DNA of 64,000 bases from Halorubrum lacusprofundi ATCC 49239 (lineage in GTDB: Archaea; Halobacteriota; Halobacteria; Halobacteriales; Haloferacaceae), in the NCBI RefSeq assembly GCF_000022205.1, contig NC_012029.1:2542001-2606000 (forward strand), read 5' to 3'. The notes below the pieces were generated by a model. It ran no database searches. It had not been told where the DNA came from and saw only the letters and a list, made by a program, of their open reading frames with translations. Both the position numbers and the translations under genes were made by a program. This document shows positions 5,005-61,873 of the stretch, piece by piece. Position 1 is the stretch's first letter. Each line of letters opens with the position of its first letter.

Positions 5005-5421
5005 TTGTCGAACCTAATAGTGTACGACCTCGACTCGGGAGCGCATTCGACGTTTTCCCTGCACTACCACCTGATACTCACCACGAAGTATCGGCGCGGA
5101 GTGCTAACCGAGGAGCGAACCCAATTCATTCACGAGGTCATCGGCGGGTTCACGGACAACTACGGTGTCGAACTGACGAACCTCGACGGCGAGGACGACC
5201 ACGTACACATCCTGTTCCGAGCGAAACCAACCACGGACCTCGTGAAGTTCATCAACACGGTCAAGGGCGCAACCGCTCGCCGTATCCGCAACGAGTACGC
5301 GGACGAACTGAAAACCGAACTGTGGGGCGACTCGTTCTGGAACGACTCGTACTGCCTCATCTCGACGGGGCAGGTGTCGCTGGATGTGTTGAAACAGTAC
5401 GTCGAGGACCAACGCGAGTAG
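5005..5421 (+). CDS. tnpA: IS200/IS605 Y1 transposase TnpA
   Basis: 138 residues from a TTG start; GTG at 5020 is an alternative, and no ATG is available. The HUH metal-binding motif is DDHVHILF with H66 and H68. The single catalytic tyrosine is Y132 in KQYVEDQ. Family knowledge: this enzyme cuts and rejoins single-stranded ends recognised as hairpins. The gene lies one base before tnpB. The N-terminus (LDSGAHSTFSLHYHLILTTKYR) is of the subgroup usually paired with a TnpB in haloarchaea. Confidence 0.93.
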   Translation: MSNLIVYDLDSGAHSTFSLHYHLILTTKYRRGVLTEERTQFIHEVIGGFTDNYGVELTNLDGEDDHVHILFRAKPTTDLVKFINTVKGATARRIRNEYADELKTELWGDSFWNDSYCLISTGQVSLDVLKQYVEDQRE

Positions 5422-5422
5422 A

Positions 5423-6664
5423 ATGTACTACGCCTACAAGTACCGTCTCAAACCGTCCGACGCCCACCGCGAGGCGTTGGACCGCCACCGAGACATTTGT
5501 AGGCAACTGTACAACCACACACTCAACCGCCTCAACGAGTACCAAGACGAGCACGGTGAACTGCCATCCATGACCACGCTTCGGTCGGAGCTACCCGACC
5601 TCAAGAAATGGTGGGACGGCCTCTCGGACGTGTACTCGAAGGTTCTCCAAACCGTCGTGGAACGGCTGTTTGACAACCTCAAAGGCCTCTCTGCGCTCAA
5701 GAAGAACGGCCACGGCGTCGGCCAACTCAAGTGGAAGCCGCCACGGGAGTTCCGCAGTTTCACGTACAGTCAGTCTGGCTTCAAGCTCGACAAGAAGGGC
5801 GGTCAGACTGTGCTGTCACTCTCGAAACTCGCGGACATACCGATTCGGCTTCACCGCGCCATCCCCGACGACGCCACGCTCAAGCAGGTCACGGTCAAGA
5901 AGGAACCGACGGGCGAGTGGTTCGCCACGTTCGGCGTCCAAATGGACCGTGAACCTCCTGAGCCACCTGAGAATCCCGAGAAGTGCGTCGGTATCGACGT
6001 GGGGATTCTCAAGTACGCTCACGACACCGACGGCACAGCAGTCGGGTCGCTCGATCTCACCGACAAACGTGAACGCTTGGAGCGCGAGCAACGGAAACTC
6101 TCGCGGAAGCAACACGGGTCGAACAACTACGAGAAGCAACGGCGACGAGTCGCGGAGTGTCACGCTAATCTCCGGCAGAAGCGCCGTGACTTCTTGCACA
6201 AACTCTCGGCGTATTACGCTCGGGAGTACGATCTCGTGGCGGTCGAAGACCTGAACGTGAAGGGGATGATGGAGTCGCCGGCGAACAGCCGCAACACCGC
6301 CTCCGCCGCGTGGCGGACGTTCCTCTCGTTGCTCGAATACAAGTGCGAACGGGAGGGGGCACACTTCGTGGCGGTTGATCCGAGAGGGACGACCAAGGAG
6401 TGTGCGTCATGTGGCGTCTCGACGGAGAAGCCGTTGTGGGTCCGTGAACACTCCTGTCCCGCCTGCGGGTTTGAGGCGGACAGGGACGCGAACGCGGCGT
6501 GGAACATTCTTTCTCGTGGCCTCGGAGATGTAGGAGTGGGACACTCCGAATCAACGCCTGTGGAGACTGCGCTCCCTGTGGATACAGCAGTATCTGCAAA
6601 GCGCGTCCTGGAAGCAGGAAGCCCTACTCTCAAGGAGCGAGCGGCGTCAGCCGTGAGCGAGTAG
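5423..6664 (+). CDS. tnpB: RNA-guided nuclease TnpB of the IS200/IS605 element
   Basis: 413 residues. The RuvC-like acidic residues are visible: D192 in GIDVGI, E275 in VAVEDLNVKG and D355 in RDANAAW. A four-cysteine zinc ribbon (CASC...CPAC) precedes the last motif. Family knowledge: TnpB is a DNA endonuclease guided by an RNA made from the element's right end, and it helps retain the element after excision. It is not the transposase. The 3' end of the reading frame runs into the probable omega-RNA. There is no frameshift, and all catalytic residues are present. Confidence 0.93.
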   Translation: MYYAYKYRLKPSDAHREALDRHRDICRQLYNHTLNRLNEYQDEHGELPSMTTLRSELPDLKKWWDGLSDVYSKVLQTVVERLFDNLKGLSALKKNGHGVGQLKWKPPREFRSFTYSQSGFKLDKKGGQTVLSLSKLADIPIRLHRAIPDDATLKQVTVKKEPTGEWFATFGVQMDREPPEPPENPEKCVGIDVGILKYAHDTDGTAVGSLDLTDKRERLEREQRKLSRKQHGSNNYEKQRRRVAECHANLRQKRRDFLHKLSAYYAREYDLVAVEDLNVKGMMESPANSRNTASAAWRTFLSLLEYKCEREGAHFVAVDPRGTTKECASCGVSTEKPLWVREHSCPACGFEADRDANAAWNILSRGLGDVGVGHSESTPVETALPVDTAVSAKRVLEAGSPTLKERAASAVSE

Positions 6665-32020: not shown

Positions 32021-32203
32021 GTGGCCAGCGCCGTCGGCGGGGTCGTGTACCTTGTTGTCACCGGCGCGGTGCTGCTGTGGGCGGGTCCCGAGCAGGGTTC
32101 GGTCGCCGCCGTCGGCGCGATCGGATCCGCAGTCGGCGTCGAACTGGCGGTCGTCGCGTTCGCCGGGCTCGCGCTGGGTCGATCGCTTATAAATGGTCGC
32201 TGA
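32021..32203 (+). CDS. Possible small two-helix membrane protein
   Basis: 60 residues from GTG 32021. Two hydrophobic helices (ASAVGGVVYLVVTGAVLLWAG and AVGAIGSAVGVELAVVAFAGLALG) are joined by a short polar turn. The frame is open back to a TGA at 31976 with no ATG, so the start is uncertain. It is divergent from pyrG, with GC-rich third positions like a real haloarchaeal gene. It ends exactly in the TATA box of the dispersed repeat. No family recognised. Confidence 0.4.
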   Translation: MASAVGGVVYLVVTGAVLLWAGPEQGSVAAVGAIGSAVGVELAVVAFAGLALGRSLINGR

Positions 32204-32375
32204 CTATGGAACGGCGGTGAACACCGCCAAAGCCCCAACCGCGAGGGCGACGCCGCACAACACCGCACCTCTCACCTCCCCAGCCTCGTCGGTGCGGCGC
32301 TTATAAGCGCCGCACCGACTCCCTCGCACGCGCTCCTCGCGGGCCGATGGCCCGCTCGGAGGCGCGCGCCACCGC
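32187..32375 (+). repeat. Dispersed TATA/mini-ORF/hairpin element, copy 1
   Basis: A TATA box (TTATAAAT, 32187-32194) is followed 23-30 bases on by GGTGAACACCGCCAAAGCC (32216-32234), shared with copies at 49989-50120 and 60412-60556. GTG 32217 opens a frame of 29 codons (MNTAKAPTARATPHN...) ending at TAA 32306 inside a perfect 32-bp palindrome. The 3' end is a two-part hairpin: CGCGC-TCC-TC-GCGGGCC, loop GAT, GGCCCGC-TC-GGA-G-GCGCG (32329-32366), then GCGCCACCGC. It could be a small RNA gene, a mini-protein gene or a mobile repeat; the conserved order argues it is one unit. Confidence 0.6.
32288..32319. repeat. Perfect 32-bp palindrome centred on TTATAA
   Basis: GTCGGTGCGGCGCTTA (32288-32303) is followed directly by its exact reverse complement (32304-32319), with no spacer. 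It lies inside copy 1 of the dispersed element. The central TTATAA could act as a TATA box in both directions, or the whole could form a cruciform or RNA hairpin. Confidence 0.8.
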
Positions 32376-32524: not shown

Positions 32525-32547
32525 ATGCGAGGGGAGGGATTTGAACC
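32525..32547 (-). repeat. Partial duplicate of the tRNA-Leu 3' end
   Basis: 23 bases at 32525-32547 are identical to 32621-32643, which cover the acceptor and T-arm end of the tRNA-Leu gene; the two are 96 bases apart. Another T-arm-like piece (gattcaaatcctcccc, 32572-32587) lies between them in the opposite sense. Duplicated tRNA 3' ends are the usual scar of an element that integrates by tRNA-specific recombination. No integrase gene is present here. Confidence 0.7.
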
Positions 32548-32621
32548 ACGGTCGCGCCAGAGGCGCTCCCTGATTCAAATCCTCCCCCCTGGTGTGCATT
32601 CGCGCGTTGTGGACGCGCTCA

Positions 32622-49988: not shown

Positions 49989-50120
49989 TTTATAAGTCGT
50001 GGAGAGCAGATCGACGGTGAACACCTCCAAAGCCTCACCGCTCGCGCTTAAAATCGCTCGCGGCATCCCTCGCGCGTGCGACTCGCGCCCTCGGGGCGCT
50101 CGTCGGCACGCGCCACCGCA
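49989..50120 (+). repeat. Dispersed TATA/mini-ORF/hairpin element, copy 2
   Basis: TATA box GTTTATAAG (49989-49997) lies 23-28 bases before GGTGAACACCTCCAAAGCC (50016-50034). GTG 50017 opens a frame of 38 codons (MNTSKASPLALKIARG...) that ends at TAA 50131-50133 within the next TTATAAATAGC box. The 3' hairpin (50074-50111) is GCGTGC-GAC-TC-GCGCCC, loop TCG, GGGCGC-TC-GTC-G-GCACGC, then GCCACCGC. It has the same architecture as copy 1, including the TC/TC internal loop and the bulged G, but with different stem bases. A second TATA-like TTTATAAATGATCG at 49913 resembles that of copy 1. Confidence 0.6.
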
Positions 50121-50167
50121 TATCTACTTATAAATAGCGTCGCTGCTCAACCAATCTCGATCCGCAC

Positions 50168-60634: not shown

Positions 60635-61873
<1,239 letters not shown>

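Follow-up and report, generated by a model that had tools for sequence, protein, structure and literature searches.

Covarying three-hairpin elements dispersed through haloarchaeal genomes form an apparently undescribed extragenic repeat family

Haloarchaea of many genera carry a family of dispersed extragenic elements with three different hairpins in a fixed order, the stems of which change in sequence and continue to pair. Two copies lie in the window, a 64-kb stretch of the main chromosome of Halorubrum lacusprofundi. In this species the family is restricted to the main chromosome; its presence differs from species to species and is independent of a resident Y1 transposase. The family is large, and apparently undescribed and unnamed. 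No description of it was found in the literature searched, and a search of Rfam 15 gave no match above the gathering score apart from the tRNA in the window, the rest being weak chance matches. The reading that we put first, if only tentatively, is that of a class-wide haloarchaeal family of REP/BIME-like elements whose folded single strand is recognised.

An earlier note on this DNA had reported two intergenic copies with a common order of parts and a common hairpin plan, and both are present, copy 1 at 32187-32375 and copy 2 at 49990-50119. In each, a TATA box is followed by a GGTGAACACC-CCAAAGCC block, a hairpin and GCGCCACCGC, and the two hairpins share a TC/TC loop, a bulged G and a 3-nt loop. 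The stems differ yet pair in both copies, as the note had it: the three-pair stem reads TCC/GGA in the 32-kb copy and GAC/GTC in the 50-kb copy, and the inner stem GCGGGCC/GGCCCGC and GCGCCC/GGGCGC, respectively. What the note missed is the complete element of about 250-270 bp, which goes beyond this plan with a third and larger hairpin and, frequently, with several leader units. The two copies in the window have each lost internal parts of it.

Copy 1, on the plus strand, is without a full hairpin I. The TTATAA box of its leader unit (32187..32192) stands 23 nt upstream of GGTGAACACC, and its leader core, GGTGAACACCGCCAAAGCCCC (32216..32236), corresponds to the sequence that in complete copies pairs with a downstream CCCCTTTGAG and so closes hairpin I. 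Only the 5' arm of hairpin I is left (32237..32253), the interior and the CCCCTTTGAG block being deleted relative to complete copies. Next comes the conserved linker GCACAACACCGCACC..CACCTCCCCAGCCTC (32254..32287), which is followed by hairpin II, a perfect 14 bp stem around TTATAA (32288..32319; -31.0 kcal/mol, z -9.2), and by the hairpin III module CCCTCGCACG...CGCGCGCCACCGC with its bulged G and TC/TC loop (32321..32375; 62.2 bits with R1, a covariance model of hairpin III; G000:C2:2574321-2574375). In copy 2, also on the plus strand, hairpin I and the linker are deleted and hairpin II is shortened as well. Here the TTATAA box (49990..49995) stands 20 nt upstream of GGTGAACACC, followed by the leader core GGTGAACACCTCCAAAGCC (50016..50034), a short hairpin II read from the sequence as CCGC-TC-GCG ... 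CGC-TC-GCGG, with a TC/TC loop of its own (50038..50063), and the hairpin III module ending in CGCGCCACCGC (50067..50119; 77.5 bits with R1; G000:C2:2592067-2592119). A 3' flanking TTATAA, with no strand assigned, lies 8 nt past the CACCGC end (50128..50133).

Copy 1 is flanked by the start of a CTP synthase gene on one side and by a tRNA-Leu gene on the other; a gene on the plus strand, still intact in relatives, seems to have left its decayed end just upstream of the copy. Copy 2 is located between the ends of a tatC-like gene and the ornithine carbamoyltransferase gene argF. The window also holds, beside the tRNA gene, a partial copy of the tRNA-Leu 3' end together with an inverted piece (TTCAAATCCTCCCC) at 32528-32590, as an old integration scar would. 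An IS605-type pair, a Y1 transposase (about 5050-5412) and then TnpB, occupies 5005-6664, and a second, lone TnpB gene 60635-61873.

Complete members were read from pattern matches in the H. lacusprofundi genome and in named genomes, almost all of them Halorubrum. One to six leader units are followed, in constant order, by hairpin I, by CCCCTTTGAGTCCC and a C-rich linker ending in CCTCCCCAGCCTCG, by hairpin II, TCCCTCGCGCG and hairpin III, and by the terminal CGCGCCACCGC. Bodies are mostly 250-270 nt long if the last leader core is taken as the start. The constant unpaired motifs are a CCC/CCC loop in hairpin I, the TC/TC loop and bulged G in hairpin III, and the flanks CCTCCCCAGCC and CACCGC; the hairpin foot, CTCGCRCG / CGCGCCACCGC, was found in all copies inspected. 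Leader units are mostly spaced 57 or 54 bp apart. In Halorubrum the spacing is nearly always a multiple of three (57, 54, 51, 60, 48), and no frame is stop-free in all units. A leaderless small protein gene was rejected, the best frame having stops in 12-14 of 74 units and hairpin lengths varying freely.

Several variants were seen. Twin-hairpin inserts with variable perfect stems occur inside some elements (L017, L019, L032, L043, L051 and others; e.g. CCAGCGAGGGACCGAAGGTCCCTCTGGCAGCCGGCGGCTTCGCCGCCGGCGACC) and recall the SMR-A elements of Haloquadratum, which target PATE palindromes. Of 112 classified copies, about 3 (L043, L056 and an H. lacusprofundi copy near G000:C2:153451) have the interior of hairpin I in reverse complement, as though this part had been turned round between the two arms. 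Outside Halorubrum, two elements can stand tail to tail with inverted flanking repeats (L212, L216, L217, L220, L223; e.g. CGAGACAAATGAGTGACCGCAC in L220), and such pairs form larger composite units.

The H. lacusprofundi genome comprises 3,692,576 bases, 2,735,295 of which make up the main replicon. The shared pattern exceeds chance by far: GGTGAACACCNNCAAAGCC with up to three mismatches matched 121 times, compared with 10 times for the reversed control, and R1 matched 58 times. All 58 R1 matches fall on the main chromosome, which leaves the remaining 0.96 Mb without any (p 3e-8 if placement were uniform). G+C content is 67%, compared with 55-57% on two small replicons (PMC5018182), and the lower value may contribute to the restriction. 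Many further copies exist in other haloarchaea, where the earlier note would have been undone by finding none. R1 matches were obtained in 51 of 51 Halorubrum genomes, from 3 to at least 114 in each, and the pattern CCYTCGCRCG-N24-54-CGCGCCACCGC in 127 of 391 genomes of the class Halobacteria, or 29 of 86 genera, with four matches for the reversed control. Other families give weaker R1 matches, which on reading have the linker, hairpin II, hairpin III and the end in common; the leader and hairpin I are also found in several distant genera. A restriction to Halorubrum, drawn from a first leader-unit pattern, was refuted by the hairpin III pattern in other genera. The genome G016 has only 10 leader-pattern matches as against 113 hairpin III copies, so that in some species the leader diverges faster than the 3' half. 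A viral or plasmid element was rejected: two viral contigs were chance matches, and phage and plasmid searches gave no Halorubrum match.

The further copies also pair. In an alignment of 26 equal-length hairpin III sequences, selected partly for foldability (A4), 95.9% of cells pair and 9 of 17 pairs change on both sides. The covariation score, the significance check that the earlier note had called for, was 0.300, compared with 0.092 +/- 0.013 in shuffles and above all 500 of them, and sliding the pairing partner abolished the covariation. The test was repeated without bias on 160 copies selected only by the upstream CCTCCCCAGCCTCG. In this set TC/TC flanks the inner stem in 128 of the 160, and of the 131 copies evaluated for the bulge, 126 have a G there; at the middle position of the three-pair stem, CG occurs in 54, GC in 41, AT in 9 and TA in 2. 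The base stem of hairpin I covaries as well. There the leader core pairs with a CTTTGAG block about 100 nt away, and this long-range pair is CAAAG/CTTTG in Halorubrum (117 of 118 copies) and GAAAG/CTTTC in other genera (9 of 9). Among 65 hairpin III sequences from other genera, with 62 different inner stems, the longest perfect arm averages 7.4, compared with 4.4 in shuffles. Since the stems change sequence yet keep pairing, it is the folded shape that persists and not the sequence, and there is good support for a structure maintained in a folded single strand. That the stems change while the loops stay suggests that something reads the fold.

The earlier note had gone further and taken compensatory change as the mark of selection. 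While the folded single strand stands, compensation is here no proof of selection by itself, and some of it may come from gene conversion or template switching. At the argF end, ten species have a copy whose 3' end lies at equal distance from the gene, and other species have none. These ten orthologous copies are 85.3% alike, compared with 85.8% for paralogs within a genome. A common site thus brings the orthologs no closer together than paralogs are, so that either modules pass between copies, or insertion has occurred repeatedly, or both have happened; an exchange of whole hairpin modules is probable. Alternatively, the palindromes could be neutral, their pairing maintained without selection on the fold by a bias of mutation, through template switching or through gene conversion from one copy to another. 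The ortholog comparison fits this account, as do gene conversion in the polyploid haloarchaea, inner stems that change length on both arms at once, and at least one copy, L026, that has become a perfect palindrome, as template switching would yield. We nevertheless consider it decidedly unlikely, because correction of this kind should erase the TC/TC loop and the bulged G, which are kept at the frequencies given above, and because neither the CCC/CCC loop nor the distant CAAAG/CTTTG pair varies between families. The loop, the bulge and the pairing over about 100 nt, be it CAAAG/CTTTG or GAAAG/CTTTC, are harder to explain by module exchange or template switching.

Within H. lacusprofundi the best pair of copies is 83.5% alike over the body, and the copies are mostly old; Halorubrum sp. 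CSM-61 has a 98% pair. One near-empty site, in a convergent gap (L088 compared with L015), showed neither a clean target duplication nor a defined 5' border; for a PATE or IS605-type element, a 4-6 nt target beside the 5' end and no duplication would be expected.

The earlier note had spoken of RNA or single-stranded DNA. A folded single strand holds; it may be RNA or DNA and may be either strand, folding energies relative to shuffles being equal on both. The minus strand folds better in 73 of 73 whole elements and in 137 of 153 hairpin III modules; this argument was dropped because the whole-element z-scores are equal, the advantage being, in the whole element, one of composition. Among stem mismatches on the plus strand, A.C outnumbers G.T, with counts of 22 and 4 in hairpin I and of 23 and 7 in the hairpin III three-pair stem (pooled, 45 and 11, counts that are not phylogenetically independent). 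A plus-strand A.C is a G.U or G.T wobble on the minus strand, where TC/TC becomes tandem GA. The asymmetry hints at the minus strand, an indication weakened by shared ancestry. A second TTATAA lies 6-9 nt past CACCGC in 73 of 137 Halorubrum copies, and one is found within 40 nt past CACCGC in 60% of copies, compared with 2% of random 40-mers. A minus-strand promoter at this 3' TATA box was rejected, as the RNA start would fall inside the outer stem of hairpin III.

On the plus strand, TTATAA is present in 107 of 219 Halorubrum leader units, exactly 20 nt upstream of GGTGAACACC in 83 of those 107, and is plausible as a promoter. The element might then be a multicopy structured noncoding RNA, in which the leader unit is the promoter of a plus-strand three-hairpin RNA with a cellular function. 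In its favour, half of the leader units have the box about 20-23 nt before GGTGAACACC, the distance that separates TATA box and start in haloarchaea, all three hairpins covary, and the structure is kept in old, diverged copies. However, the other half of the units lack the box, neither of the two leader units read from other genera (L218, L224) showed it, genomes differ in copy number (3 to at least 114) and orthologous sites in whether a copy is present, the wobble asymmetry favours the other strand, and there is no Rfam family. On balance we think a functional RNA unlikely.

Gene contexts were taken from a simple codon-based gene finder. Convergent gaps hold 33 of 70 elements, compared with 19 of 193 element-free gaps (p 3e-10), whereas divergent gaps are depleted (10 of 70 elements compared with 61 of 193 element-free gaps, p 0.005). 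The upstream gene runs in the sense of the element in 34 of 48 cases; between tandem genes, element orientation is 13 to 8, with no significant bias. A hairpin can terminate transcription in Haloferax volcanii (PMC7237163). The convergent enrichment, the upstream gene sense and this precedent are consistent with a cis element acting at gene 3' ends, as a bidirectional terminator, an insulator or an mRNA stabiliser. The absence of a clear sense bias in tandem pairs speaks against such a role, and so does the lack, after the hairpin, of a T-run, the main haloarchaeal terminator: directly 3' of the hairpin, T5C was found in 0 of 137 copies and T4 in 11%. A T-stretch terminator was rejected on this count. 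Moreover, most genes manage without the element, and REP-like elements come to lie in such positions because they do no harm there. A 3'-end function thus seems quite unlikely.

We compared the family with known systems. Like REP/BIME sequences, it consists of imperfect palindromes that occur outside genes in many chromosomal copies, at the 3' ends of genes, and that form clusters or tandem arrays and have constant mismatches or bulges. It differs in its length of about 250-270 bp, its three different hairpins and its tandem leader, in having CTCGCRCG / CGCGCCACCGC in place of the GTAG or GGAG foot of RAYT-associated REP/BIME, and in being abundant in genomes without any Y1 gene, whereas REP/BIME have RAYT (Y1) transposases. 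MITEs are likewise short, non-coding, multicopy and apparently non-autonomous, but here there are no terminal inverted repeats, the ends differ (TTATAA leader and CACCGC), no target duplication was seen (L015/L088), and no related transposon is known. Integron attC sites are recombinogenic as folded single strands with variable stems, an extrahelical G and an unpaired spacer, a likeness in manner of working only. Their core RYYYAAC/GTTRRRY (R-box) was absent from the stem base in the aligned stems, and the present elements are scattered singly over the chromosome and are not cassette ends.

The closest published haloarchaeal elements are the PATEs and SMRs of Haloquadratum walsbyi (PMC3119063), which are also transposase-free, palindromic and present in many copies, with nested inserts into palindromes. 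The family is not described there and, in contrast to those elements, shows a covarying three-hairpin order conserved across many genera and no hairpin III excess near IS605-type genes. PATEs are common in Haloquadratum and have near-terminal palindromes and no target duplication (PMC3119063), which could suggest that the family is a degenerate IS605-type derivative of this kind, but such an origin is very improbable. Hairpin III matched 0 times in 101 kb around 30 Y1 genes and only 3 times in 96 kb around TnpB genes, about the expected density; copy number is uncorrelated with Y1 count (rho -0.02), and Y1 (PF01797) is absent from 10 of the 51 Halorubrum genomes, which nonetheless have 19-113 copies. 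An IS605/PATE or RAYT origin was rejected on these grounds.

We return to the REP-like reading. The elements would be non-autonomous and settled on the chromosome, mostly 3' of genes, with a folded single strand, more likely the minus strand, as the persistent unit. The constant loops would be recognised by a trans-acting factor, an enzyme acting on single-stranded DNA or binding RNA. Because stems would have only to pair, they could drift by paired changes, and gene conversion may also swap them between copies. Copies would accumulate in convergent gaps because they are tolerated there. Several points count against this reading: no mobilising enzyme was found for the family, nor a clean target duplication or a defined 5' border; the restriction to the chromosome could partly follow G+C; the argument for the minus strand draws on wobble counts that are not phylogenetically independent; and the fixed positions of TATA boxes in Halorubrum point to transcription. 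A further proposal, possible if doubtful, is that of a class-wide structured nucleic-acid module, conserved only in its fold and unpaired loops, for which an enzyme system with no relation to Y1/RAYT transposases would process or mobilise the folded single strand.

A large repeat family in at least 29 genera of the haloarchaea, which are among the best-studied archaea, thus appears to be without a name, an Rfam model or a description that we could find. The covariance model and the list of copies open it to testing in H. lacusprofundi, a species with a gene-knockout system (PMC5052560). Finding the reader of the fold would reveal either a new, large structured RNA or a new means by which archaea move or maintain non-autonomous DNA.
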